DNA of 64,000 nucleotides, from NCBI RefSeq assembly GCF_000263195.1, contig NC_018748.1, positions 992,001-1,056,000 on the forward strand. Direction: 5' to 3'. The stretch is from Emticicia oligotrophica DSM 17448. GTDB taxonomy: Bacteria; Bacteroidota; Bacteroidia; Cytophagales; Spirosomataceae. The translations under genes and the position numbers were made by a program. Of this stretch, positions 2,045 through 28,002 are shown one piece after another. The notes below the pieces were generated by a model. That model ran no database searches, was not told the origin of the DNA, and worked only from the letters and a program-made list of their open reading frames with translations. The stretch's first letter is position 1. Every line of letters begins with the position of its first letter.

Positions 2045-2839
2045 ATGAGAAACTTTCAAAAACTCTTATTTTTAGCAATTTTAGTTACAACTTTTTCACC
2101 TACTTTTGCTCAAATTAAAAGTCAAAACAACAATATTTGGCTACACTACGTTGGTAAAAATATGCTTAACAAAAAGCTTTCGTTTACGCTAGAAGCTACT
2201 ATGCGATATGCCAACGGCTTTAGTGAAAAACAGCAATATTTCATTCGTCCTTCATTCGACTATCAGTTTACCAAGCACTTTATCGGAAGCATCGGTTTTA
2301 GTCATTATAATACTTATGTTTATGGTATCCCTGCCATAAACAAACGCCCTATTCCAGAAAATCACCCTTGGATTCAAGGTACTTTTAACCATCAATTTGG
2401 TGATTTAAAGCTAACCAATCGTTTACGTAATGAATTTCGTTTTGTAGGGATTGCCTCAAGTACGGTACCCACACCAACAAGTCAAAGCGATTATACGATT
2501 AGCGATTACAAATTCCGTGACCGTTTTCGTTACATGATTTTAGCTACATATCCACTCGTAAAGAAAGATAACAAGCCCAAATTACTCGGAATCATCGGCG
2601 ACGAAGCATTCATGAATATTGGTAAATTAGGCACTGATGTTAGCAAAAATAATGTTGGAAAGACCTTCATGAACCAAAACCGTATTATTGCTGGTTTGGG
2701 GTATGTCATCAATCCTCACCACCAAATTCAGGTGTGCTATATTCAACAAAACATCTGGAACTTCCCTGATACTATTGAGGAAAGTAACCCAACTGTTCGA
2801 TTATCTTACCTTACCAATCTTTCATTTGCCAAGAAATAA
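2045..2839 (+). CDS. DUF2490 family outer membrane protein
   Basis: 264 residues from the ATG at 2045. A longer frame opens with TTG at 2009, but the ATG is directly followed by a proper signal peptide (MRNFQKLLFLAILVTTFSPTFAQ), so it is the better start. The mature part has the DUF2490 pattern: an early NNIWLHYVGK segment, then alternating strands with many aromatic residues, including RLRNEFRF and DRFRYMILATYPL. Members are predicted small outer membrane barrels of unknown role. It lies 73 nt after the porin with no terminator between, and a hairpin terminator follows, so the two are probably one operon. Confidence 0.7.
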   Translation: MRNFQKLLFLAILVTTFSPTFAQIKSQNNNIWLHYVGKNMLNKKLSFTLEATMRYANGFSEKQQYFIRPSFDYQFTKHFIGSIGFSHYNTYVYGIPAINKRPIPENHPWIQGTFNHQFGDLKLTNRLRNEFRFVGIASSTVPTPTSQSDYTISDYKFRDRFRYMILATYPLVKKDNKPKLLGIIGDEAFMNIGKLGTDVSKNNVGKTFMNQNRIIAGLGYVINPHHQIQVCYIQQNIWNFPDTIEESNPTVRLSYLTNLSFAKK

Positions 2840-2860
2840 TTGCTTTATATGTAAGCTACT

Positions 2861-2896
2861 AAAAAGCCCTATTCTTCATTGAACGGGGCTTTTTTT
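2861..2896 (+). terminator. Intrinsic terminator after the DUF2490 gene
   Basis: AAAAAGCCC pairs with GGGGCTTTTTTT around 2871-2882, and the stem runs directly into a T tract (2890-2896). Confidence 0.85.
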
Positions 2897-2931
2897 ATTT
2901 GATTCTTTCAAAATCCTCAAACAATCATTGA

Positions 2932-2939
2932 TAGATTTG
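2932..2939 (+). promoter_or_regulatory. Possible -7 promoter element for crtZ
   Basis: TAGATTTG fits the Bacteroidota -7 consensus TAnnTTTG and lies 33 nt before the crtZ start. I do not see a TTG at the expected 17-23 nt upstream, so only the -7 half is supported. Confidence 0.35.
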
Positions 2940-2972
2940 TGTTAAATATAAAATTTATAAACAGTTTTATAT

Positions 2973-3431
2973 ATGATGATTTTAGCTAAGTTTTTGATTA
3001 CTATAGGGACTTTTGCATTTATGGAATTTGTAGCGTGGTTTTCTCATAAGTATATCATGCACGGCTTTGGGTGGGCATGGCACGCTGACCATCATAACCA
3101 CCATAAAGGCTTTTTTGAGAAAAACGATTATTATGCAGTTGTATTTAGCGTTGTCGCTTCCTCTACAATTATTTATGGCAACACTAACCCTGAGTTTTGG
3201 TATTTAACTTGGTTTGGAGCAGGTGTTACACTCTATGGTATCGCCTATGTTGTATTTCATGATATCATAGTTCATCGCCGTGTAAAAATCAAGTTCGTGG
3301 CAAAAAGTAAATACATGAAACGTATTATGAATGCTCATTATATTCATCATAAAGTACACACCAAAGAGGGTGGAGAAGCTTTTGGGTTTTTGTATGCTCC
3401 TAATAAATACGAGCCCAAAAAGAGAGATTAA
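2973..3431 (+). CDS. crtZ: Beta-carotene hydroxylase, CrtZ type
   Basis: 152 residues, the usual length for bacterial non-heme di-iron carotene hydroxylases of the fatty-acid-hydroxylase superfamily. All four histidine boxes are visible in order: HKYIMH (HX4H), HADHH (HX2HH), HDIIVH (HX4H) and HYIHH (HX2HH). Hydrophobic segments between them place the enzyme in the inner membrane. CrtZ adds 3-hydroxyl groups to the beta-ionone rings of beta-carotene to give zeaxanthin, which fits the yellow-orange pigments of many Cytophagales. No other carotenoid gene is nearby, so it stands as a single-gene unit with its own hairpin terminator. Confidence 0.88.
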   Translation: MMILAKFLITIGTFAFMEFVAWFSHKYIMHGFGWAWHADHHNHHKGFFEKNDYYAVVFSVVASSTIIYGNTNPEFWYLTWFGAGVTLYGIAYVVFHDIIVHRRVKIKFVAKSKYMKRIMNAHYIHHKVHTKEGGEAFGFLYAPNKYEPKKRD

Positions 3432-7723: not shown

Positions 7724-9112
7724 ATGCGAAAACTTATTTCTTACTCACTGATTCTATCATCACTGATAGTATTAGTTTCAGCAAAACCAAGTCACGAAAA
7801 TATTCTTACAAAACCCAATATTATTTACATTATGGCCGATGATTTAGGCTATGGTGATATTGGATGTTACGGACAAAAAACATTAAAAACCCCCAATCTC
7901 GATAAAATGGCTGCTGAAGGTATTCGCTTCACCGATTTTTATTCAGGAAATACGGTTTGTGCTCCCTCGCGATATGCCTTAATGACAGGCCTACACATGG
8001 GGCACGCCTATATACGTGGTAATGGAGAATTTCCGATACGTGAAAACGAACAAGTTTTACCGAAAATCATGCAAGAAAATGGTTATACTACAGCCATGTT
8101 TGGCAAATGGGGATTAGGTCAAAGTCATAATACAGGTTCGCCAGAAAAACAAGGCTGGGACGAGTTTTTGGGTTATGCCACCCAAGGGCATGCTCACCGA
8201 TTTTATACCAATAATTTATGGGCAATTCAAAATGGAAAATGTGTGAGTTATCCGATGGATTCTCTTCAACATTCTCATCCATTTATTACTGAAAAAGCCT
8301 TTGATTTTATAAAAAAAGGTCATGAAAAGCCATTTTTTCTCTACTGGGCTATTACAATGCCACACGCCGAAATGTATGCTCCTCCTGCTACTTTAAAGAA
8401 ATATTTGAATTCGGATGGAAGCAGTATTTTTGAAGAGAAAAAACCATTTGTACAAATGGCCAAAGGCGGACGCTCATATCGGTCACAAGATAAACCAAAT
8501 GCCAATATGGCTGCCATGATAGACCACATGGATGCAGATATTGGCCGCTTAATTGCTCTTCTCAAAGAATTAGGTTTAGATAAAAATACTTACGTTTTCT
8601 TCACTTCTGATAATGGACCCCACAATGAGGGTGGCCGAGATATGGAGTTTTTTGATAGTAATGGCTCACTCAAAGGTTTCAAAAGAGATTTGTATGAAGG
8701 AGGTATTAGAGTACCGATGATTGCTTGGGGAGCGAATATCCCCAAAGGGAAAATAACCCATGAGCCATTAGCAAACTGGGATGTATTGCCCACTTTTACT
8801 AATTTAATTCGAGCAAAAACACCTCAAAACATTGATGGTATTTCATTTGCCAATATTTTAGCTGGGAAGAAAATTAAACAAAAGCACGATTATTTGTATT
8901 GGGAATTCCATGAAAGAGGCTTCGACCAAGCAGTAAGAAAAGGTAAATGGAAACTAGTGAAACAAAAAGGAAACACTGAATTATTCGATTTGAGCACAGA
9001 CCTTGCAGAAACAACAAATTTAGCAGTAAAATACCCTAAAATTGTGGCAGAAATGGAGAAAATCATGCAAACTTCAAGGGCCGATTCGGAGTTATTTCCT
9101 GTGAAGAAATAG
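7724..9112 (+). CDS. Arylsulfatase (S1-family sulfatase), exported
   Basis: 462 residues with a Sec-type signal peptide over the first ~20. The sulfatase signature CAPSR is at residues 79-83; Cys79 would be converted to formylglycine. Asp39-Asp40 (MADDLGYGD) are the expected calcium ligands, and the second metal segment is FFTSDNGPHNEGG. GKWGLGQ and the C-terminal KGKWKLVKQ-ELFDLSTD region complete the family pattern. It would hydrolyse a sulfate ester in the periplasm, but the substrate is not predictable here. No sulfatase-maturing enzyme gene is in the window. Its stop codon is only 3 nt from that of the convergent anti-sigma candidate. Confidence 0.92.
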   Translation: MRKLISYSLILSSLIVLVSAKPSHENILTKPNIIYIMADDLGYGDIGCYGQKTLKTPNLDKMAAEGIRFTDFYSGNTVCAPSRYALMTGLHMGHAYIRGNGEFPIRENEQVLPKIMQENGYTTAMFGKWGLGQSHNTGSPEKQGWDEFLGYATQGHAHRFYTNNLWAIQNGKCVSYPMDSLQHSHPFITEKAFDFIKKGHEKPFFLYWAITMPHAEMYAPPATLKKYLNSDGSSIFEEKKPFVQMAKGGRSYRSQDKPNANMAAMIDHMDADIGRLIALLKELGLDKNTYVFFTSDNGPHNEGGRDMEFFDSNGSLKGFKRDLYEGGIRVPMIAWGANIPKGKITHEPLANWDVLPTFTNLIRAKTPQNIDGISFANILAGKKIKQKHDYLYWEFHERGFDQAVRKGKWKLVKQKGNTELFDLSTDLAETTNLAVKYPKIVAEMEKIMQTSRADSELFPVKK

Positions 9113-9115
9113 AAA

Positions 9116-10933
9116 TTACATAAAATTAACCCTTACATTCAAACCAATATTTGATGGGCGAATTTGCATGTAACTATTTACATCAAGCGATTGTGACAAA
9201 CTATAACGATACGTAGGTTCTATCCAAACTGTTTTACCACCTTTCAATGGATATGCCAAAGCAACTGAGGCATTTAGATAATAAGCATATTCTTTATTGT
9301 TTAGGATTCTAACTGCCTCAGCTCCTCCTAAGACAAATACTTTATGTTTTTTGTCAGAAACTAAATAAGAGTTATCAAGTTTTAAGCCAACAGTATGCAA
9401 AAACTTATTTTGACTAACGGCCTCCCCTACCCCTACGAGCGTATAATTTGCGTTCGTTAAGTCAACCTCATAAACACCATTATTTACTTCATAATTCAAC
9501 GATTGACGCAACCCCGCATACGAAAGTGAAGCACCAGCGGAGAACCTGCGAGTAATTGGCTGCATCATGCCTACACGAGCTTGTACACCTAAACGTTGAG
9601 CATCAAGAGCATTGAGGGTACCTACTTGCTGAATATATGTGCTAGTTTGTGGTAAAATCGTCAGAGCTTGGTAAGTTTGCAATGGCATTACACTTCCAGT
9701 AAATATCATTTTTCTACGTACACGCTCTTCTGGTTCTTCCATTGGAGTTTCAGTATTAAAAGCAATTTCACCTAATGGCAAATAAACACTTTGTTGCTTA
9801 AAATTCTTAGCATTGAGCAATTCTAAGTCAGCAACCCCTACATTATTTTGATTATACGCAACCGAAACTTCTTGATTATCAGTGTTTGAAGGCAATACTG
9901 GACTAGTATTTTGTGCAATACTACTTTCATTCTTCTCGACTTCTATGCTTGAATTTAAAGGTGTTTTACGCTTCGGAATGCGTTTAACTAACTGGATATT
10001 AGCAGATTGATTGACCAAATCAGTTTTCGATTTTAAAGCCTTATTTTTACTGATAGAGGCAATTTTTGATACATTTTCTAAAGAAATTGCTATTTCATTT
10101 GCTTCTTTGCCAATACGTGTTTTACCTTCTATTACTTTTGGCTTATTCGAAGCAATTTTGCTTTGCCCAGAAGAAGTAGCCGTTGAATTCAAACCTTTTG
10201 TTTGATTTATGGCAACTGTAGTATTTGTTGGGTTATTTCTGTAAAGTAACCATCCAAAACCTAAAAGTAGAGCAATACTCGCTGCGATTCCTACACGGAA
10301 AGCAAACGGCCAAGCAATTACACGACGTTCTTTTTCATCGGTAATAGCAGCCTTAATCGTCTCCCAAGATTCTCCTTTAGGCTCAGCTTCAAAATCTTTA
10401 AATTTAGCTCCAAGCTGTGTAGCCAACAGGATATTTTCCCAAGTTGATGTCTGCGGCTCTGCCTCGTAGTTTTTAAACTTCTCGCTCAGTGAAATTGGTG
10501 TATCTGCTGAAACAAGTCCAGCCATGATTTTATCCCAAGATTCTGACATTGGTTCGGCTTCATAATCATTGAACTTATCACTCAACAGAGATTTTTCGTT
10601 GATTGGTATAGCTGCTCTAATTTTATCCCAAGATTCGGCAGTTGGCTCTGCTTCGTAGTCATTAAACTTAGCTTTTAATTGGGTAGCTAATTGAATCTTG
10701 TACCAAGTATCATCTTGAGGTTCGGCTTCATAATTTTCAAATTTCCTACTTAAATCAGTAGCAAATTTTACTTCATCCCAAGACTCTGGCTGTGGTTCAG
10801 CCTCATAAGTGCTAAGTTTATCTTTTAAATCTAGAGCAAAACGAATCGCCTCCCAAGAATTCTCTTGAGGTTCGGCTTCGAAATTCTCAAATTTTGCAGA
10901 TAAAAGTTTCCTTATGTCGTCTTGGTTTTTCAC
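9116..10933 (-). CDS. Candidate membrane-spanning anti-sigma factor with seven cytoplasmic repeats and a barrel-like C-terminus
   Basis: 605 residues. Residues 1-200 carry seven copies of a motif FxxYEAEPxxxSWxxI; the EAEP starts fall near 19, 44, 69, 94, 125, 157 and 182, so the spacing is 25 residues with two longer gaps of 31-32. One transmembrane helix follows (about 208-231, FRVGIAASIALLLGFGWLL). A Ser/Thr/Asn/Lys-rich linker runs to about residue 400, and a ~200-residue C-terminal part looks like short outer-membrane strands, ending NVRVNFM. The gene lies 69 nt downstream of an ECF sigma gene on the same strand, the usual sigma/anti-sigma order. Single F-x-x-x-E-x-x-P-x-x-x-x-W motifs are typical of Bacteroidota anti-sigma-type proteins beside ECF genes. 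The layout recalls the dual-membrane-spanning anti-sigma factors reported in Bacteroides thetaiotaomicron. The function is inferred from motif and context. Confidence 0.7.
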   Translation of the reverse strand: MKNQDDIRKLLSAKFENFEAEPQENSWEAIRFALDLKDKLSTYEAEPQPESWDEVKFATDLSRKFENYEAEPQDDTWYKIQLATQLKAKFNDYEAEPTAESWDKIRAAIPINEKSLLSDKFNDYEAEPMSESWDKIMAGLVSADTPISLSEKFKNYEAEPQTSTWENILLATQLGAKFKDFEAEPKGESWETIKAAITDEKERRVIAWPFAFRVGIAASIALLLGFGWLLYRNNPTNTTVAINQTKGLNSTATSSGQSKIASNKPKVIEGKTRIGKEANEIAISLENVSKIASISKNKALKSKTDLVNQSANIQLVKRIPKRKTPLNSSIEVEKNESSIAQNTSPVLPSNTDNQEVSVAYNQNNVGVADLELLNAKNFKQQSVYLPLGEIAFNTETPMEEPEERVRRKMIFTGSVMPLQTYQALTILPQTSTYIQQVGTLNALDAQRLGVQARVGMMQPITRRFSAGASLSYAGLRQSLNYEVNNGVYEVDLTNANYTLVGVGEAVSQNKFLHTVGLKLDNSYLVSDKKHKVFVLGGAEAVRILNNKEYAYYLNASVALAYPLKGGKTVWIEPTYRYSLSQSLDVNSYMQIRPSNIGLNVRVNFM

Positions 10934-11002
10934 AATTTGAACCCCACTGAAGGGAGTATATTATTTTTGTTTGGCTTGCCGCCAATTTATATCTTTAATT
11001 AT

Positions 11003-11542
11003 CTAAAGCATCACACCCATTTCTTGCAAAGTTTTACGTAAGTGTACCTTTGCACGTGAGAGCTGAGATTTGGATGTACCTTCCGAAATTTGCAAGATTT
11101 TTGCGATTTCGTTGTGTTCATACCCATCAATCAAGTACATATTCACTACCATACGGTAGCCATCGGGCAACTGATTAATCACAGCTACAATTTCTTCGTG
11201 GCTAAGCTGAGATATAACGCTAATATCGGCATCACTTTGATTTTCAATTACCTCATAATCAACGAATTGCCGCTCATTTGAATTTTGACGATAATGGTCA
11301 ATAGCCGTACGAACTACTAATGATTTCACCCAATATTCAACCGACTCTGGTTTTTGCAAATCGTTGATTTTATTAAAAATCTTTATAAATGCCTCTTGAA
11401 AAATATCTTCGGCTTCCATTACTGTTCGGGCATAGCGACGACACACACCCAAAAGACGACCTTTATAGAGGTTATAAAAGGCAGCTTGGGCTCTAGGGTC
11501 ATTACGCTGACAACCAAGAACTAATTCAACTTCATTTCGCAT
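11003..11542 (-). CDS. ECF-family RNA polymerase sigma factor (sigma-70 family)
   Basis: 179 residues with sigma region 2 (FYNLYKGRLLGVCRRYARTV, then MEAEDIFQEAFIKIF, the classic -10 recognition helix) and region 4 (LPDGYRMVVNMYLIDGYEHN, then EIAKILQISEGTSKSQLSRA as the -35 helix-turn-helix). It directs RNA polymerase to a dedicated promoter set when released from its anti-sigma partner. The next gene on the strand is the seven-repeat membrane protein, its likely partner. Upstream lies a PepSY-like lipoprotein gene 63 nt away on the same strand, which may belong to the same unit. Confidence 0.95.
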   Translation of the reverse strand: MRNEVELVLGCQRNDPRAQAAFYNLYKGRLLGVCRRYARTVMEAEDIFQEAFIKIFNKINDLQKPESVEYWVKSLVVRTAIDHYRQNSNERQFVDYEVIENQSDADISVISQLSHEEIVAVINQLPDGYRMVVNMYLIDGYEHNEIAKILQISEGTSKSQLSRAKVHLRKTLQEMGVML

Positions 11543-11605: not shown

Positions 11606-13021
11606 TCAACCCCGTCGGGCAGAAATAAAATTAGCATTAGCATCAAAATTTATATAATAATAGTCATTCCCGACTTTTATTGCTATCATATAACCAAAAA
11701 GTTTGTTTTCAACGTAGGCAATAAATCCTTTTTGAAAATTCCACCCTTTAAAATTCGCATCGAGATATTCTTTTGCTTTACTAGGAATATCCTTTGCCTC
11801 CAACGGCATCTGACTTAACAGTGGCTCAGGTAATTTCAGGATTATCTCCTTCATATTTAGCACATTACCTTTATCATCGAAGGTGTAATCATAGGTAATA
11901 TTATTACTTAAAATAATTACCCAATAAGCTTTTTTATTTTTCTCATTAATAAGTGCCGTATTAATGTACTTGAAATTAGGGTACTTATTTGTAAGGAAAG
12001 TGATAATAGGGGCTGGTAAATCTTTTGGTTGAATATTTTTAACCTCAAAATCATCATTAAAACCACCAACTAACTGCTCCTTTTTGACAAATTTTTGTTC
12101 GTTATCAAACTGCAATGAATATCGCTTATCGCCATAAATAATTAAAATATTATACGTTTGAATTTCTCCATTATTCAAGAAGATAAGTCCTCTATCAAAT
12201 TTCCAGCCCTTGAATTCTTTATCAAGATATGCCTTTATTTTAGATGGAATTTCATTAAAAGAAAGAGGTTTATCTTCTATCCTACCAATTGGTGGTCCAT
12301 TAATTCCAAAAGAAGAAGACTTTAAAACATTACCTTTATCATCAAATAAAAAATCATACGTTGTATAATCTTTACTTATAACAACCGAGTAGCTCTTTAC
12401 ATCATCAAGCATGACAACGGCCGCTTTGATACATTTATAATCGCTTCCGTATTTAGTACTTAGATAATCAAGTATAACTTGTGGTAATTCATTTTTTTCA
12501 ATGAAATACATTTTGGGTGGCTTTTGCCCAGCTGGCTTAGCATCTCTATCGTCGGTAACAGAGAGAATGAGTGTTCCTGTTGCATCAAAAATGAGCGTGA
12601 GTTCGTCGGCACTACTCAATTTGATTCGAACTTTATAGCCTTCAACTTGTCCCGATTTATTTATTTGCTGACAAACATCTAAATAAACCGCACCCACGAA
12701 ATTAGTCGCAATATAATTTTTGACTATATCTGGCAACCCAACCTGTCCACTTTGCTTGTACATTTCAGAAATTACGCCAACATTATTGACAATGGCCGAC
12801 ATTCGTTCGAGTTTCAAATCAAAATCAGATTGAAAAACCCTATTTTTTTCAATAGTAGTGAAACGTACTTTGGTTGCTTCTGGATAGTTTGTCTTTATGG
12901 CATTGATTGCTGCTTTGGGAACTAACTCATCGACGTTTTGCTGTGGCTGTAAATCCGTGACGCTATCGCAGCTCCACAGGATAAGCCCAACAAAAAACAT
13001 ATATATATATAATTTTCTCAT
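11606..13021 (-). CDS. PepSY-like repeat lipoprotein
   Basis: 471 residues with a lipoprotein signal (GLILWSC, lipidated Cys18). The mature part has six tandem copies of a PepSY-like/beta-lactamase-inhibitor-like unit. Each begins with a (L/I/V)P-x-x-x-x-x-(Y/F/I)-(L/I)-x-x-x-(Y/F) helix, near residues 34, 97, 179, 258, 335 and 412, followed by strands. Copies at 258 and 412 share a KGW-F signature, and those at 179 and 335 share a TKY/NKY one, so the last four look like a duplicated two-unit block of about 155 residues. Such domains are secreted and thought to be ligand- or inhibitor-like; no activity is predicted. It lies directly upstream of the ECF sigma gene. Confidence 0.72.
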   Translation of the reverse strand: MRKLYIYMFFVGLILWSCDSVTDLQPQQNVDELVPKAAINAIKTNYPEATKVRFTTIEKNRVFQSDFDLKLERMSAIVNNVGVISEMYKQSGQVGLPDIVKNYIATNFVGAVYLDVCQQINKSGQVEGYKVRIKLSSADELTLIFDATGTLILSVTDDRDAKPAGQKPPKMYFIEKNELPQVILDYLSTKYGSDYKCIKAAVVMLDDVKSYSVVISKDYTTYDFLFDDKGNVLKSSSFGINGPPIGRIEDKPLSFNEIPSKIKAYLDKEFKGWKFDRGLIFLNNGEIQTYNILIIYGDKRYSLQFDNEQKFVKKEQLVGGFNDDFEVKNIQPKDLPAPIITFLTNKYPNFKYINTALINEKNKKAYWVIILSNNITYDYTFDDKGNVLNMKEIILKLPEPLLSQMPLEAKDIPSKAKEYLDANFKGWNFQKGFIAYVENKLFGYMIAIKVGNDYYYINFDANANFISARRG

Positions 13022-13170
13022 TGATGATTCGTTTCTAACGCTTCAGTATCAGAAAGACGCTGCCAAATAAAATTTGGTTGCATTTAGCAAACAAATATAG
13101 CTAAATATGTGATTAAAAATTGTAAGAGAGGCTCGAATAAAGCTTATATCTATCATTTAAATTAATAGAA

Positions 13171-20360: not shown

Positions 20361-21041
20361 ATGAAAGCCCTACTTTTAGAAGACGACCCAACATTATCAA
20401 AAGAAATACAAAGTTTTTTGTTATCAAAAGATATCGAATGTGATGTTGTTTTTGATGGGGAATTGTTTTTTCGGCAAGTTAAAAGACAAGATTACGGCAT
20501 CTATCTTTTAGATATAAACGTACCGAAAATTAATGGTTTTGATGTGTGTAAACAAGTACGTGAGACCAATAAACTCACGCCTATCATTATGCTTACTGCT
20601 TATGGTGATATTCAAGATAAAACAGATGCCTTTGGTTTTGGGGCTGACGATTATTTGGTCAAACCTTTTCATTTTGAAGAACTTTTTTTAAGAATTACTT
20701 CATTACTACGCCGCAGCAATAAGCCACAAGGAACGGATAAAATTATAATCATCGACGACCTACAAATAAACACGAGCGAAATGCTGGTTCGTAGAAAAGA
20801 TGAGTTAATTGACCTCACACCCAAAGAATATCAATTGCTTTTACTTTTGGCTAAAGCCAAAGGACGAACACTCTCGAAACAAAGCATTGCCGAACAAATC
20901 TGGGATGTACACTTTGATTCAAATATGAATACAATTGAGGTTTATATCAATTTTCTTCGCAAAAAAATCGACCGAAATCACGCAACAAAACTCATTCATA
21001 CTCGTCCAGGATTTGGTTATTACCTAAAAATCGAAGACTAA
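20361..21041 (+). CDS. OmpR/PhoB-family response regulator
   Basis: 226 residues. The receiver domain has the acidic pair in LLLEDDPTL, the phosphorylation site Asp51 (YLLDINVPKINGFD), a threonine/alanine switch in IIMLTAYGD and the conserved lysine in DDYLVKPFHF. A winged-helix output domain follows (TPKEYQLLLLLAKAKGRTLS ... NTIEVYINFLRKKID). The stop codon is immediately followed by the histidine kinase ATG. It probably activates the adjacent metal-efflux genes, the standard CzcRS/CusRS arrangement; this is a context inference. Confidence 0.95.
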   Translation: MKALLLEDDPTLSKEIQSFLLSKDIECDVVFDGELFFRQVKRQDYGIYLLDINVPKINGFDVCKQVRETNKLTPIIMLTAYGDIQDKTDAFGFGADDYLVKPFHFEELFLRITSLLRRSNKPQGTDKIIIIDDLQINTSEMLVRRKDELIDLTPKEYQLLLLLAKAKGRTLSKQSIAEQIWDVHFDSNMNTIEVYINFLRKKIDRNHATKLIHTRPGFGYYLKIED

Positions 21042-22409
21042 ATGACCCTCAAAAGACGCATTGCTATTAATATTGCCGTGGCCTTTTCGATTTTATTCGG
21101 CTTGGCGGCTTTTATTATTTTCTATTCATTTTCTTCGTTTAGAAGAGAAGAATTCAGGCAACGGCTGGAAGAGAAAGCCTTGACAACCGCTAAACTCTTG
21201 GTAGAGGTAAAAGAGATTGATAATCAAATACTTAAACTCGTTGACCAAAATACAATCAATAAACTCTACAACGAGAAAACATTGGTTTTTGACCAAAACT
21301 TCAAGTTACTTTATAGCAGTATTGATGACGCAACAATTAGCTGGAATGTAGAAGACCTTAAACACCTTAAACGTGAGAAATCATTCTTTCGCTCGGAAGG
21401 AGAAAAAGATGTTTTGGGTATTTATTATGATTTTGAAAAGGCAGACTACTACATTTTACTTTCAGCCGAAGATAAATATGGCATTAACAAGCTCGATTTT
21501 TTGCTTTTTACGTTGGTTGTTACCTTTTTAGCAGGAACAATTTTAGTTTGGTTTTCAACCTATTTTTTCATTGAAAGATTACTTAAACCATTGGATAATT
21601 TCCAAAAACAAATTACCAATATTTCAGTCAATCAATTAGATATTCAGTTGGAAGAAACCAAACACAACGATGAAATTAATCTTCTAACTAAAGCATTTAA
21701 TATCATGTTGGCACGTATTGAAAAAGCCTTTCAAAACCAACGTGAATTTACTTCGAATGCTTCGCACGAAATTCGAACCCCATTGGCACGTATCACTTTT
21801 AAGGTACAAAATTTGCTACAAAACCCAGAGCATTCACCTGAGACAATTACTTCACTTAAAAGCATCAACGATAATGTGCATCAGCTTTCTGATTTGGTCA
21901 ATTCTTTGCTTTTACTTTCAAAATTCAACAAAGAAGATGCACAAAAACGCTTCGAAAAAATACGCATTGATGAGGTAATTTTTTCGGCTAATGAGCAAAT
22001 AAAGAAGTCTAATCCCCAGTTTTTTCTCAACTTCGAAATCATTGACCATGAATCTCTCGAACTTTCCATGGAGGTCTATGGTGTACGTTCATTGCTCGAA
22101 ATTGTTTTTATCAATTTACTCAAAAACGCTTGTCTTTATTCAACAACGCCACAAGCCCAAATTACAATCGAACAAACTGCCCTACATCAATTACAAATCA
22201 AGATAAGTAACCAAGGAGATACCCTTAGTACAACCGAACAAGAAAAGTTATTTCAACCATTCATGCGTGGTCAGAATGCTAATAAAGCTAATGGCTCGGG
22301 TTTAGGGCTAAGACTTTCCAAACGCATTCTCGATTACCATTCGGCGAGCATTGAGTATAGCATCGAAGAACCAAACACCAATATATTTACGATTATTTTC
22401 TCCAATTAA
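21042..22409 (+). CDS. Membrane sensor histidine kinase (CusS/CzcS-like)
   Basis: 455 residues. Two transmembrane helices (about 9-31 and 150-175) flank a short periplasmic sensor region. A HAMP-like linker (LLKPLDNFQKQITNISVNQL) leads to the dimerisation helix with phospho-acceptor His242 (NASHEIRTPLARI). The ATPase domain has an N-box (FINLLKNACLYS), F-box (LFQPFMRG) and G2 (NGSGLGLRLSKRIL). There is no spacer from the response regulator, so the two are translationally coupled. It lies at the head of the RND-pump operon, so sensing of a periplasmic metal ion is the likely job. Confidence 0.93.
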   Translation: MTLKRRIAINIAVAFSILFGLAAFIIFYSFSSFRREEFRQRLEEKALTTAKLLVEVKEIDNQILKLVDQNTINKLYNEKTLVFDQNFKLLYSSIDDATISWNVEDLKHLKREKSFFRSEGEKDVLGIYYDFEKADYYILLSAEDKYGINKLDFLLFTLVVTFLAGTILVWFSTYFFIERLLKPLDNFQKQITNISVNQLDIQLEETKHNDEINLLTKAFNIMLARIEKAFQNQREFTSNASHEIRTPLARITFKVQNLLQNPEHSPETITSLKSINDNVHQLSDLVNSLLLLSKFNKEDAQKRFEKIRIDEVIFSANEQIKKSNPQFFLNFEIIDHESLELSMEVYGVRSLLEIVFINLLKNACLYSTTPQAQITIEQTALHQLQIKISNQGDTLSTTEQEKLFQPFMRGQNANKANGSGLGLRLSKRILDYHSASIEYSIEEPNTNIFTIIFSN

Positions 22410-22487
22410 GTTTTTTTTAATCTAATCTTAAAGGTGTTTTTAATTTGCAAGTCTGAGTTTTGCACTCCAAAAAATTCAGAACGTGTA

Positions 22488-23741
22488 ATGTTGAAGAAAC
22501 TAACCTTTTTCCTTTTACTATTTGCCAATACTCAAGCGGTATTTTCACAACAAAACCTCAGTCTCAAACAATGCGAGGAAGCATTCGTTAAAAAAAACTT
22601 ACTACTGTTGGCCGAGCAATACAATATTGACATGGCCAAAGCAAGTGTCATTCAAGCCAAAATTTGGGAATTACCAGTCGCTTCAGGCGAGTTTAACGCC
22701 ATAAACCCGCAAAATAAACGCGTGCTTGATATTGGAGCCAAAGGGCAAAAAGCAGTCGCAGTTCAACAGCTTATTTATTTAGGAAAGAAAAAACAAAGCG
22801 AAGTTGAATTTGCTAAATCTACCATTGGTATTGCTGAATTTCAGTTTGAGCAGCTCCTACGAAATCTTCGCTATGAGGTGCACCAAAGCTTTTATAGCAT
22901 CTATTTCAACCAACAAAAAATCAATAATATCACTCGCCAAATTTCTAACATTGATACGCTTGCCAAAGGTTATGCTCTTCAAGCACAACGAGGCAATTGG
23001 CCATTGCGTGATGTTGTCCGTTTACAATCATTATCATTCAATTTGAAGAATGATTTATTGGCTGCCCAAAAAGAAATCAACGAGGAGCAGATGACGCTTA
23101 AAATACTTACTAATTATCAAGAAAATATCAATCCAGTTGTTGATGATGAGTCTCTTAGCCCCTATTTCAATGCATCAACACTGCCTCTTTCTGAGTCATT
23201 ACTCAATACAGCTTTGGAGAAAAACCCTGATTATTTGAGTTTCTTGAAAATCATTGAAAGTAATGAATTGATGATAAAATGGCAGAAATCACTTGCTAAA
23301 CCAGACCTTACAGTTGGGGCATCTTATGACCAACGCGGTGGGGCTTTTGGAAATCAAGTAAACTTTACCTTTGGCATTCCGATTAACTTATGGAATCGAA
23401 ACAAAGGAAACATAAAAATTGCCGAAGCTGAACTTGAAAAATCGAAAAAACTACAAGAACAAAAAATAAATGAAATCCGTAGTCAACTGAGCAACGCTAC
23501 CCAAACTTGGCAACAACACCGCCTTCAATACGCTCAGATCACGGCCTCTAATTCTGAAAACCTTGAAGCGGTTTACAAAGGTGTACTTCAAAATTTCCAG
23601 AAACAAAATATATCCTTACTCGAATTCACCGATTTCATGGAAAGCTACAATGAGAGTATTTCGCTACTTATCGAGCTTCGCAAACAAGTTATTTTATCGG
23701 GTGAAACCATCAGCCACATCGTTAACGTAAAATTATTTTAA
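22488..23741 (+). CDS. TolC-family outer membrane factor of a metal RND pump (CzcC-like)
   Basis: 417 residues from the ATG at 22488; an upstream GTG at 22434 adds an unlikely extension. Signal peptide MLKKLTFFLLLFANTQAVFS precedes two similar alpha-helical halves with long coiled-coil stretches (for example NIKIAEAELEKSKKLQEQKI) and the strand segment VGASYDQRGGAFGNQVNFTF. This matches outer membrane factors such as CzcC and CusC, which form the exit duct through the outer membrane. It is the first of three pump genes, and the adaptor gene starts 3 nt after its stop. Confidence 0.9.
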   Translation: MLKKLTFFLLLFANTQAVFSQQNLSLKQCEEAFVKKNLLLLAEQYNIDMAKASVIQAKIWELPVASGEFNAINPQNKRVLDIGAKGQKAVAVQQLIYLGKKKQSEVEFAKSTIGIAEFQFEQLLRNLRYEVHQSFYSIYFNQQKINNITRQISNIDTLAKGYALQAQRGNWPLRDVVRLQSLSFNLKNDLLAAQKEINEEQMTLKILTNYQENINPVVDDESLSPYFNASTLPLSESLLNTALEKNPDYLSFLKIIESNELMIKWQKSLAKPDLTVGASYDQRGGAFGNQVNFTFGIPINLWNRNKGNIKIAEAELEKSKKLQEQKINEIRSQLSNATQTWQQHRLQYAQITASNSENLEAVYKGVLQNFQKQNISLLEFTDFMESYNESISLLIELRKQVILSGETISHIVNVKLF

Positions 23742-23744
23742 GAA

Positions 23745-24824
23745 ATGAAAAATATACTCCTACTAATTATAATCACTGGCAGTTTATTAGCGTGCAATAA
23801 GCCAGAAAAAAAACAAGAAACCCAAACTACTTTTGTTTTGAGTCCAAAAATGCTTCAAACAACTAAAACAGAGGTTGTTTCGATGCAAAATCTACGTAAT
23901 GAACTGAATTTCTACGGAAAAATTACAGCCGATAACAACAAGATGATTGAAGTATATCCAGTTGTGGGTGGTAATGTGACTAAAGTATTCGTTGAACTAG
24001 GTGATTATGTAAAAAAAGGACAACTTTTGGCTACAATTCGTAGTACGGAAGTAGCCAGTTATGAGAAAGAATTAGACGATGCACGTAACGACCTATTAGT
24101 GGCAAAAAACAACTTGAAAGTTGCCCAAGAACTCTTTGAAGGCAAACTTACTGCAGAGCGTGAAGTAATTGAGGCAAAAAGTCAGCTCGAAAAAGCTAAA
24201 TCACAATTGCACCGAATTGAGGAAACCTACCATATTTATAACATCAAACAAGGAGCCGTTTATGAAGTCCGCTCACCTTTGAGTGGCTTTGTTATTCAAA
24301 AAAATATCAACCAAGATATGCTCCTTCGAAACGACCGCACCGATAATATTTTCGACATTGCTGAAATTGATGATGTTTGGGCCATTGCCAATGTCAACGA
24401 AAGTGATATCAACCAAGTAAAATTAGGCATTGATGCGGCCGTAACTACGCTTAGTTACCCAGACAAAGTATTTAACGGAAAAGTTGATAAAATTTTCAAT
24501 ATCATCGACCCCGAAACTAAAGCGATGAAAGTACGCATCAAACTCAATAATGCTAACTACTTACTTAAGCCTGAGATGCGTGCCAATATCAAATTATCTT
24601 ATACCGAAAGCCAACAAATGCTAGCTGTACCATCGGAATCGGTGATTTTTGATAAAAGCAAAAACTTCGTAATGATTTTCAAAGACCGTAATAATATCGA
24701 AACTCGTCAGGTGGAAGTTTTCCGTCAGGTAGGCAATACCTCTTACATTTCTTCGGGCTTAAAAGCAGGCGAAAAAGTAATGACCGCCAATCAGCTATTA
24801 ATCTATGACGAGCTAAATGACTAA
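23745..24824 (+). CDS. RND periplasmic adaptor (CzcB/CusB-like membrane fusion protein)
   Basis: 359 residues, a lipoprotein with lipidated Cys17 (ITGSLLACNKPEKK). The lipoyl-like hairpin domain is split around a helical hairpin: VVGGNVTKVFVELGDYVKKG, then two coiled-coil helices (residues ~103-160), then VRSPLSGFVIQKNINQD. The barrel and proximal domains follow, with the family's VPSESVIF segment near the end. It links the inner-membrane pump to the TolC partner. I see no extra Met/His-rich N-terminal extension that would point to copper or silver. It lies within the pump operon, 76 nt before the RND gene. Confidence 0.92.
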   Translation: MKNILLLIIITGSLLACNKPEKKQETQTTFVLSPKMLQTTKTEVVSMQNLRNELNFYGKITADNNKMIEVYPVVGGNVTKVFVELGDYVKKGQLLATIRSTEVASYEKELDDARNDLLVAKNNLKVAQELFEGKLTAEREVIEAKSQLEKAKSQLHRIEETYHIYNIKQGAVYEVRSPLSGFVIQKNINQDMLLRNDRTDNIFDIAEIDDVWAIANVNESDINQVKLGIDAAVTTLSYPDKVFNGKVDKIFNIIDPETKAMKVRIKLNNANYLLKPEMRANIKLSYTESQQMLAVPSESVIFDKSKNFVMIFKDRNNIETRQVEVFRQVGNTSYISSGLKAGEKVMTANQLLIYDELND

Positions 24825-24900
24825 CACCTTAGTCTGCAATTGAAAATATAATTATTACGCTCCTCAAAAGAGTAGTTCAAATAAATTAGGCCTAAAGCTT

Positions 24901-27900
24901 ATGAACAAATTCATTAAAAATATTATTGCATTTTCGCTCAAAAACAAACCTTTTACCTTCTTTTGGGTAGGAATTTTGGTTATTTCGGGCTTTATTTCTT
25001 TCAAGAATATGCCCATCGAGGCATTTCCTGATGTAACCAATACACAAATCATCATCGTTACGGAATGGAACGGCCGTAGTGCCGAGGAAATCGAACGTTT
25101 TGTAACAACGCCCATCGAAATTTCGATGAATTCGGTGCAGAAAAAAACTAGCGTACGTAGTATCACGATGTTTGGTTTATCAGTCATCAAAATCATTTTT
25201 GAAGATGATGTTGAAGATTTTTTTGCTCGCCAACAAGTAAATAACTTACTCCGTAGCGTGTCACTTCCTGAGGGTGTAGAGCCCGATGTTCAGCCCCCTT
25301 ATGGACCAACGGGTGAAATTTTCAGATATACCTTAAAAAGTAAATCACGTGATTCTCGCGACCTACTCACCATTCAAAACTGGGTCATTGACCGTCAACT
25401 TCGCTCCGTACCTGGAGTAGCTGATTTAGTGGCTTTTGGAGGACAGGAAAAAACTTATGAAATTAGTGTTGACCCTAATCGACTATCGAAATATGATATT
25501 ACACCTCTTCAAGTTTATGAAGCGGTAAATAAAAGTAACTTAAACGTGGGTGGTGATATCATTGAAAAAAACAAACAAGCGTATGTTGTTCGTGGAATTG
25601 GTCTATTGAGCTCGATACAAGACATTGAAAATATTATTGTAGATGATGCGGGTGGAAATCCGATTTTAGTCAAAAACTTAGCTGATGTCCACGAAGCAGC
25701 GATGCCACGAGTGGGTCAAGTAGGATTGAATGATAATGATGATGTAGTGGAAGGAATTGTGGTAATGCGTAAGGGCGAAAACCCTAAAGAAGTACTCGAA
25801 AGAGTTAAAGCGAAAATAGCAGACCTCAACGAACGAATTTTGCCATCGGATGTAAAAATGGAGACATTTTATGACCGAGATAACCTCATGAACTACACCA
25901 CAACGACGGTTATGCACAACATGTTTGAGGGTATTTTGTTTGTGACGGTCATCGTATTTCTATTTATGGCCGATTGGCGTACGACTATCACGGTTTCTAT
26001 CATTATTCCGCTTTCATTGCTTTTTGCTTTCCTGTGCCTTAAACTTAAAGGTATGAGTGCCAATTTACTTTCTCTCGGAGCAGTTGACTTTGGAATTATC
26101 ATTGATGGAGCGGTGGTAATGGTTGAAGGTATTTTTGTAACGCTCGACCACATGGCCCACAAAAAAGGCATGGAGGCCTACAATAAATTTGCTATTGGAA
26201 GTACCATCAAAAAAACAGGAACGGAGTTAGGAAAGGCCATTTTCTTCTCGAAACTAATCATTATTACAGCCTTAATGCCCATTTTTGCTTTCCAAAAAGT
26301 AGAAGGTAAAATGTTCTCTCCGTTGGCTTATACTTTAGGTTTTGCTTTATTGGGTGCTTTGTTGTTTACGCTTACTTTAGTACCTGTACTTTCACATATT
26401 TTCTTGAATAAAAACGTAAGAGAAAAGAACAATCCATTTGTAAATTTCTGGAATAAACTTGTAGAAAGAGGCTTTGCTTGGACCTTCGCCAACAAACGTC
26501 TTTCGCTTATAGTTTCAATCGCTTTTATGCTTATAACTTTCTTTTCAGCGAAGTTTTTAGGCACAGAATTCCTTCCCCAACTCAATGAAGGAGCACTTTG
26601 GGTAGAAGCTAAATTTCCGATGAGTCAGAGTTTGCAAGAAACTGTTCAAAAAACAGCCATTCTCCGCAATGAACTTCGCCAATTTCCTGAAGTAAATGGT
26701 GTTTTATCGCAAGTAGGTAGAAGCAACGATGGTACAGACCCAAGTGGTTTTTACTATGTACAAATGCAGGTAAACCTCAAACACAAAGACGAATGGAAAC
26801 GTAAAATCACCATGGATGATTTGGTTCGCCAGATGGATGATTCACTTTCAAAATACCAAGGTATAGGCTATAATTATTCTCAACCTATCATTGATAATGT
26901 GGCTGAGAGTGTTGCAGGTATCAACGCCTCAAATGCCGTGAAAATTTTTGGCGATGACCTCAATGAACTTGATAAAATTGCCAACCAAGTAATCAAACAA
27001 ATCGAAAAAGTAGAGGGTATCAAAGATGTGGGTATTCTTCGAAATGTGGGTCAGCCTGAAATTAGTGTGATTCTCGACCGTGAGCGAATGGCCGCCTATG
27101 GAGTAACTTTAGCCGATGCCCAAGCCGTACTCGAAATGGCTTTCGGTGGGAAAACTGCTACCCAAAAGTTTGAAGGTGAAAAGAAATTCGATGTACGTGT
27201 TCGCTATTTAAAGAATTATCGCAAAGATGAAGAAGATATGAAAAACTTAAAAGTGCCAACGATTCAAGGAGTAAAGATTCCACTCAAAGAAATTGCCACT
27301 GTTAAGAAAATTACAGGTCCAGCCTTTATTTACCGTGATAATAATAAGCGTTTTATTGGGGTAAAATTCTCAGTTCGTGACCGTGATTTAGGTAGTACAA
27401 TTGCCGATGCCCAACAAAATGTCAATAAAAGCATTAAACTACCTACTGGTTACTCCATTGGTTGGACTGGCGAATTTGAAAACCAAGTACGTGCCACCAA
27501 ACGTTTAGGCGAAATGGTACCAATCAGTTTAGTTGGAATCTTCGTGCTATTATTTATCATGTTTGGCAATGTAAAAGACTCGCTTTTAGTATTGGCCAAT
27601 GTGCCATTTGCCATCATCGGCGGTATTATTGCATTACACGTAACTGGCATCAATTTTGGTATTTCGGGCGGTGTAGGTTTTATTGCATTATTTGGTATTT
27701 GTATCCAAAATGGGGTTATTTTAATTTCTGAATTTCATAAAAACTTAAAAGCAAGAATGACACTCGATGATGCTATTTTAGAGGCAGTGAAAGTCAGAAC
27801 ACGACCAGTTGTCATGACTGCCCTCATGGCCTCAATTGGTCTTTTACCAGCAGCCATTAGTACGGGAATTGGCTCAGAATCACAGAAACCATTAGCCATT

Positions 27901-28002
27901 GTTATCATCGGTGGGCTAGTTACTGCAACCATTCTTACGTTACTTGTTTTCCCGATTATTTTCTGGGTTTTCAACCGAGTCAAACACGGAACTATCAAAT
28001 AA
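24901..28002 (+). CDS. Heavy-metal efflux RND transporter (CzcA/CusA family)
   Basis: 1033 residues, the usual length. Twelve transmembrane helices are arranged as one, then five, then one, then five, around two large periplasmic loops. The TM4 proton-relay triad of the heavy-metal branch is present: Asp396, Asp402 and Glu409 in DFGIIIDGAVVMVE, with the same spacing as CzcA. The gene is the third of the CzcCBA-like unit and is followed by a weak hairpin. It exports divalent or monovalent metal ions from the periplasm or cytoplasm by proton antiport. Which metal (Zn/Co/Cd or Cu/Ag) is not fixed by what I can see. Confidence 0.93.
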   Translation: MNKFIKNIIAFSLKNKPFTFFWVGILVISGFISFKNMPIEAFPDVTNTQIIIVTEWNGRSAEEIERFVTTPIEISMNSVQKKTSVRSITMFGLSVIKIIFEDDVEDFFARQQVNNLLRSVSLPEGVEPDVQPPYGPTGEIFRYTLKSKSRDSRDLLTIQNWVIDRQLRSVPGVADLVAFGGQEKTYEISVDPNRLSKYDITPLQVYEAVNKSNLNVGGDIIEKNKQAYVVRGIGLLSSIQDIENIIVDDAGGNPILVKNLADVHEAAMPRVGQVGLNDNDDVVEGIVVMRKGENPKEVLERVKAKIADLNERILPSDVKMETFYDRDNLMNYTTTTVMHNMFEGILFVTVIVFLFMADWRTTITVSIIIPLSLLFAFLCLKLKGMSANLLSLGAVDFGIIIDGAVVMVEGIFVTLDHMAHKKGMEAYNKFAIGSTIKKTGTELGKAIFFSKLIIITALMPIFAFQKVEGKMFSPLAYTLGFALLGALLFTLTLVPVLSHIFLNKNVREKNNPFVNFWNKLVERGFAWTFANKRLSLIVSIAFMLITFFSAKFLGTEFLPQLNEGALWVEAKFPMSQSLQETVQKTAILRNELRQFPEVNGVLSQVGRSNDGTDPSGFYYVQMQVNLKHKDEWKRKITMDDLVRQMDDSLSKYQGIGYNYSQPIIDNVAESVAGINASNAVKIFGDDLNELDKIANQVIKQIEKVEGIKDVGILRNVGQPEISVILDRERMAAYGVTLADAQAVLEMAFGGKTATQKFEGEKKFDVRVRYLKNYRKDEEDMKNLKVPTIQGVKIPLKEIATVKKITGPAFIYRDNNKRFIGVKFSVRDRDLGSTIADAQQNVNKSIKLPTGYSIGWTGEFENQVRATKRLGEMVPISLVGIFVLLFIMFGNVKDSLLVLANVPFAIIGGIIALHVTGINFGISGGVGFIALFGICIQNGVILISEFHKNLKARMTLDDAILEAVKVRTRPVVMTALMASIGLLPAAISTGIGSESQKPLAIVIIGGLVTATILTLLVFPIIFWVFNRVKHGTIK

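Follow-up and report, generated by a model that had tools for sequence, protein, structure and literature searches.

What would an anti-sigma factor gain from carrying the same short motif seven times? The question is raised by a locus within 64,000 nucleotides of Emticicia oligotrophica DSM 17448 (the window; NC_018748.1, positions 992,001 to 1,056,000), where an earlier note, made from the letters alone, had placed a protein with seven sigma-binding-like motifs beside an ECF sigma factor. Three genes follow one another on the reverse strand: a PepSY-like gene (11606..13021, matching PF11396 over three stretches), which is the first of a putative operon, the gene of the partner ECF sigma factor (11003..11542, 179 aa) and a candidate anti-sigma gene of Dma-type architecture (9116..10933, 605 aa, GTG start). 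The sigma ORF carries Pfam Sigma70_r2 and Sigma70_r4_2 (sigma-70 regions 2 and 4) and ends 69 nt before the anti-sigma start (gap 10934-11002, reverse strand), so the array protein does lie next to an ECF sigma gene. Among the 25 of 112 NCBIfam models listed, the superfamily model TIGR02937 was the only one above cut-off for this sigma factor. On its other side the anti-sigma gene meets a sulfatase gene (7724-9112, forward strand) tail to tail, 3 bases apart. Elsewhere in the window, 20361-28002 (forward strand) encodes a two-component system, an outer-membrane efflux protein and an AcrB-type pump, and resembles an ordinary RND efflux cluster (scanned apart from ORF 23745-24824).

The motif copies are confined to the N-terminal 200 residues. 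As 27-residue units they begin at residues 10, 35, 60, 85, 116, 148 and 173, a spacing of 25, 25, 25, 31, 32 and 25 residues, which bears out the seven copies with two longer gaps read by the earlier note. All are encoded on the reverse strand: copy 1 at 10826..10906 (residues 10-36), copy 2 at 10751..10831 (residues 35-61), copy 3 at 10676..10756 (residues 60-86), copy 4 at 10601..10681 (residues 85-111), copy 5 at 10508..10588 (residues 116-142), copy 6 at 10412..10492 (residues 148-174) and copy 7 at 10337..10417 (residues 173-199). The pattern F-x-x-[YF]-E-A-E-P-x-x-x-[ST]-W fits six of them exactly, the exception being copy 2, the lowest-scoring, with L in place of F. Copy 5 is gapped in the aligned relatives with four and six copies, and copy 7 is the nearest to the membrane and the one at which MAFFT aligns single-copy homologues. 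When the residues of the protein were shuffled 20,000 times, the slightly looser pattern that detects all seven never arose. A profile run against the whole genome also scored each copy singly (E 1.2e-12 to 6.7e-15), values that are not independent because the profile included those copies. Tandem Repeats Finder reported no repeat at the DNA level, where the copies are pairwise 49-69% identical.

Pfam, NCBIfam and PDB sequences were searched with the protein, with its relatives and with the repeat profile, and nothing relevant to the N-terminus came up. No Pfam anti-sigma family was found in the N-terminus of the window protein, and no PDB sequence matched the repeat profile, in both cases at E up to 10. 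A likeness to the N-terminal motif of FecR was considered and was supported by no search. Arrays of anti-sigma motifs are not described in the titles and abstract openings found, a scope that leaves most of the subscription literature outside.

Behind the array the predicted layout is that of a protein crossing the whole envelope. Residues 207-232 (10238..10315, reverse strand) form a hydrophobic stretch modelled by AlphaFold2 as an inner-membrane helix (block pLDDT 47-69). Residues 234-399 (9737..10234, reverse strand) are predicted to be a disordered, presumably periplasmic tether, with pLDDT below 50 throughout and a pN near 0.5, where the C-terminus has about 0.1. Residues 410-604 (9122..9706, reverse strand) make up, by predicted strands and Foldseek, a C-terminal beta barrel of outer-membrane type. 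The full-length model was built on 21 aligned homologues (mean pLDDT 54.7, pTM 0.35). In ten-residue blocks from residue 401, 12 of 21 have pLDDT of at least 81 and the other nine 48-74, and the repeats appear as low-confidence helices between E-A-E-P loops (pLDDT 39-69). All 24 Foldseek matches at E <= 0.001 are titled as outer-membrane barrel proteins, including pOmpT and the transmembrane domain of OmpA, with NspA next at 1.5e-3. The fits are loose over those 24 matches (rmsd 7-23 Å) and the target-normalised TM-scores for OmpA (0.56) and NspA (0.58) come with an rmsd of 7-9 Å, so that the fold class of the barrel is supported and its detail is not. Pfam barrel matches occur in relatives only, the autotransporter barrel matching weakly in three of nine genus members (best E 0.0085). 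The suggestion of a barrel behind a single inner-membrane helix therefore stands, the helix at moderate confidence from AlphaFold2 and the barrel from AlphaFold2 and Foldseek together, and the further suggestion that the protein spans both membranes agrees with the layout of the published Dma family, as described in passages of PMC13088901. On these models the protein probably extends from the cytoplasm as far as the outer membrane.

Profiles of the 27-residue motif fetched 133 loci (the best matches of each search), all with a motif ORF, which reduce to 107 distinct ORFs. In 106 of the 107 the same strand carries an ECF sigma ORF upstream, and the remaining ORF begins at a contig edge. A sigma ORF was counted if its end lay no more than 300 nt ahead of the open frame and no more than 600 nt into it; overlaps between the two are overstated, because frames run from stop to stop. 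An earlier, stricter rule had linked 67 of 80, the other 13 being 12 sigma ORFs that overlap the frame and the contig-edge case. Moreover, a stretch resembling a membrane helix follows the motifs in 104 of the 107. The profile searches thus place the motif with proteins adjacent to ECF sigma factors.

Is the array a peculiarity of one strain? A genome search placed the window genome among 11 genomes of one genus, the named matches being Emticicia species and MAGs labelled Emticicia or Cytophagaceae. Copy number was counted in 12 genomes, these 11 and one named MAG: two have seven copies, eight have four to six, one shows at least five up to the point where its contig ends, and in one the gene is lost. 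Seven copies are found in the window and in E. aquatilis, six in two MAGs and E. aquatica, five in MAG EMPMRC01, at least five in MAG HJF.15 (the contig-edge case) and four each in BO119, 21SJ11W-3, C21 and E. agri. Even in this close group, then, seven copies are not the norm. In a second genus, one genome (G537) carries five copies 29-33 residues apart; a paralogous pair in the window genome has one. When the window is compared with E. aquatilis, the best match of every copy is the copy at the same position, and in relatives with fewer copies whole units are absent from the alignment, from which it follows that copy number shifts by gain and loss of units. The gap between the sigma and anti-sigma genes, 69 nt in the window, is 86-112 nt in five other relatives with five to seven copies and 35-38 nt in four relatives with four, lengths that rest on start codons of our choosing; a coupling of gap length to copy number, with two clades only, is a guess.

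The sigma gene has an orthologue at 86-96% identity in eight of the ten other genomes of the genus and was not seen in two, G005 and G006. In G005 the contig terminates within the anti-sigma gene. A closer inspection of G006 showed that its anti-sigma gene is a two-frame remnant of the last ~64 codons (L071, 3280-3472), at a locus that retains recA, a 144-aa gene and the sulfatase. Neither a sigma nor a PepSY gene match was present within the 11 kb read there, and the sigma factor has no orthologue elsewhere in the genome (best 37% identity against 86-96% for orthologues). This joint loss fits the view that sigma and anti-sigma are a working unit, as judged from a single draft genome (90% complete, 4% contamination) in which PepSY was looked for at the locus only.

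The copies are old, and their core is constrained. Between the window and E. aquatilis, with synonymous sites close to saturation, pN is lowest in the motif core (0.016), followed by the C-terminus (0.09), the rest of the repeats (0.19) and the tether (0.50). The same ranking was obtained with each of four other species tested, for which the value outside the core may be inflated because the alignment used (A5) pairs some copies from different positions. Among 63 copies from 12 arrays, W is present in 63, E10, P13 and I21 each in 62 and F6 in 53; W and P or A were required by the search pattern, which also restricted positions 6, 9, 12 and 21, leaving E10 as the sole free count. A recognisable copy occupies each 25- or 31/32-residue register of these arrays (29-33 in G537), and a few copies are altered, such as one in E. 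aquatica with G for E10.

The first profile suggested a narrow distribution. At E 0.001 it matched 14 of 395 genomes of the phylum set, with more than one match in the window genome only, and at E 0.01 it matched 36 of 222 genomes of the family. A broader profile at E 0.05 matched 51 of 395 phylum genomes and at least 154 of 390 genomes of the order, and the matches listed included ORFs with two matches in G024 and G726 (order) and in G127 and G288 (phylum). G304 encodes a four-copy protein for which the profile showed a single match (L151, ORF 2311-3204 of the reverse complement). These ORFs led us to survey another Bacteroidota family (f18), in which 72 of 195 genomes match. In its best 30 loci (L152-L181) all 30 ORFs lie behind a sigma ORF, and HMM counts of one, two, three and four copies occur in 3, 15, 10 and 2 of them, with some more copies visible by eye; the resulting multi-copy fraction (27/30) is biased upward because the profile came from multi-copy proteins of three f18 genomes and the best scorers were taken. 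The f18 ORFs are 232-383 aa long, with one membrane helix, a motif that often reads E-V-x-P-P and a spacing of about 24-42 residues, and they are seemingly too short to hold a tether and a barrel. An expansion unique to Emticicia and the neighbouring genus is thus ruled out by this survey.

Pooled over the 107 ORFs, counts of one to seven copies occur in 67, 17, 10, 6, 2, 3 and 2, the single-copy figures being upper bounds because divergent copies escape the profiles. Of the 63 ORFs of at least 380 aa, 49 are single-copy, whereas 26 of the 44 shorter ones have two to four copies, many of these coming from the survey seeded with multi-copy proteins; ORF length is a mere proxy for the barrel, and lengths may be clipped by the ends of the loci. 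The statement in the earlier note that most such proteins carry one copy accordingly holds for the long ORFs and fails as a general statement. What is new here is that arrays are not confined to Emticicia, and to judge from these ORFs they exist in at least two architectures, a long one with a barrel (four to seven copies) and a short one (two to four).

Upstream of the PepSY gene, reading by eye located a promoter-like element, TGCAACC-N16-CGTCT (13055..13082, reverse strand). Its two blocks recur in the upstream regions of all eight Emticicia relatives examined (9/9 with the window), amid diverged sequence, and L073, from another genus, has a version with N17. The PepSY gene itself lies upstream of the sigma gene in the same eight regions and in L073 and L074; no PepSY match occurs in the 9 kb around the homologous sigma/anti-sigma pair of L072. 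We take the element to resemble an ECF promoter, and from this resemblance autoregulation is inferred. Within the window genome the exact pattern has two sites against one for a reversed control, and sites with one mismatch number nine in both; within the window, sites with two mismatches are fewer than chance. The evidence for the element is therefore its conservation and not the number of sites, which does not beat the control, and no regulon is claimed from these counts. The second exact site (with N17; G000:C5:3902912-3902940, L183) precedes an ORF that resembles, by eye, a DsbD-type membrane protein. The spacer of the element in the window contains an inverted repeat, CCAAAT-N3-ATTTGG; L145 and L146 have a shorter one, CCAAT-N4-ATTGG, matching on both sides, and L147 has none. 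This repeat could be the site of a second regulator.

How, then, might the seven copies work? Our preferred reading, which we regard as about evenly poised between right and wrong, is that the protein is a Dma-type anti-sigma factor in which each repeat docks sigma as a module of its own and the array as a whole acts as a multi-site buffer. Each repeat, as modelled, would be a short helix, an E-A-E-P loop and a second helix, and each such module would hold the partner ECF sigma factor or one of its two domains. In this way a single anti-sigma molecule would retain several sigma molecules beside the inner membrane. Through the tether and barrel this store would be coupled to a signal at the outer membrane, and a signal disabling the protein would free it. 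The sigma factor probably transcribes its own operon, in which case the multi-site buffer would determine where the threshold of a positive feedback lies. At the level of sequence the proposal is founded on the seven copies, their conservation, the linkage to sigma genes and one joint loss; the helices, the membrane helix, the tether and the barrel are predicted. Separate docking modules are favoured because most long homologues have a single motif, the cores are kept across copies and the spacing is loose; likewise, the range of about 24-42 residues in f18 suits independent modules better than one rigid fold. Against this reading, an AlphaFold2 model of the sigma factor and the seven repeats as one in-frame chain gave no confident docking (pTM 0.28), with the repeats at pLDDT 28-48, a range not comparable like for like with that of the full-length model because only four alignment rows covered the repeats.

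The alternative that survives best, to which we give a real but minor share of belief, is that neighbouring repeats jointly wrap one sigma molecule (1:1) in the manner of the helices of CnrY and class I anti-sigma factors, the extra copies raising affinity or rebinding (avidity) and not the number of sigma molecules held. Known anti-sigma factors touch both sigma domains with separate helices, according to passages of PMC7406223, and the low-confidence helices of the model begin a little ahead of the W in one repeat and end near the F in the following one, so that the functional unit may be shared between copies. Against a joint wrap stand the loose spacing and the long ORFs counted as single-copy, where one motif seems enough, though profiles under-count divergent copies. 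The best-scoring copy is the first in 28 of 40 multi-copy arrays and the last in six, a hint that the copies may be unequal. This, and the L that replaces an aromatic residue in copy 2 of the window, would suit an arrangement in which the sigma site is a single copy, either the first or the one nearest the membrane, and the rest are weak or serve as spacer; we think this distinctly unlikely, as the core residues are kept across copies in Emticicia, whereas the evident spacer, the tether, evolves freely. That the motif binds something else, e.g. core RNA polymerase, another repeat or the PepSY-like protein, is left room by the failed docking and by a contact shown in no structure, and is highly improbable given the linkage to sigma in 106 of 107 ORFs, the L072 pair with no PepSY match nearby and the direct control of its sigma factor by Dma1 in its authors' account (passages of PMC13088901).

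If the multi-site buffer is correct, one inhibitor may hold several sigma partners at once. A wider generalisation, advanced tentatively as somewhat short of probable, is that Bacteroidota use arrays of an anti-sigma module of ~25 residues, in at least two architectures, as an evolvable sigma buffer tuned by copy number, which would store several sigma molecules and let them go at once, for the long form when a signal arrives at the outer membrane. The control of the numerous ECF sigma factors of Bacteroidota is poorly known, and one survey found class I anti-sigma factors beside only 6% of them (as given in passages of PMC7406223). The motif flags likely sigma partners from sequence alone. 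Moreover, the natural copy numbers of one to seven offer a ready series for asking whether anti-sigma valency sets the threshold of a response.

Among known systems, CnrY (class II, Cupriavidus metallidurans) is the nearest parallel to the single unit, being a minimal two-helix element of which helix 1 binds sigma domain 4 and helix 2 domain 2 (described in passages of PMC7406223); by analogy, it illustrates that a unit of this small size could be enough to grip a sigma factor. Its two helices wrap one sigma factor in the crystal structure, and the window repeat is modelled as a helix-loop-helix at low confidence. CnrY has one copy of its element. The class I anti-sigma domain (ASDI) differs in having ~100 residues and being seen by family models, whereas the window unit has ~25 and is without a Pfam match at E up to 10. 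As an analogy only, from an unrelated eukaryotic protein, the disordered Drosophila protein ASCIZ carries seven LC8-binding motifs for one partner (PMC10046861). Closer in kind are the short f18 proteins, in which a related motif is repeated in tandem and whose genes immediately follow that of an ECF sigma factor, as here; by length they seem to have no tether or barrel. Closest of all in its predicted order of parts is the Dma family, which, as portrayed in passages of PMC13088901, has an N-terminal anti-sigma region, one membrane helix, a long disordered tether and a C-terminal barrel, and adjoins an ECF sigma gene in a short operon. That family already has this order of parts, so the idea of one protein across both membranes is nothing new in kind. 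A sigma factor of group ECF21 is among the marks of the family; the one in the window is placed by TIGR02937 at superfamily level. The window protein is best described, by the modelled likeness in order of parts, as an anti-sigma factor of Dma type in which the N-terminal motif has been multiplied. Compared with Dma1/2 as described, and not by sequence, the window protein stands apart by its seven N-terminal motifs, and the seven copies are the unusual part.
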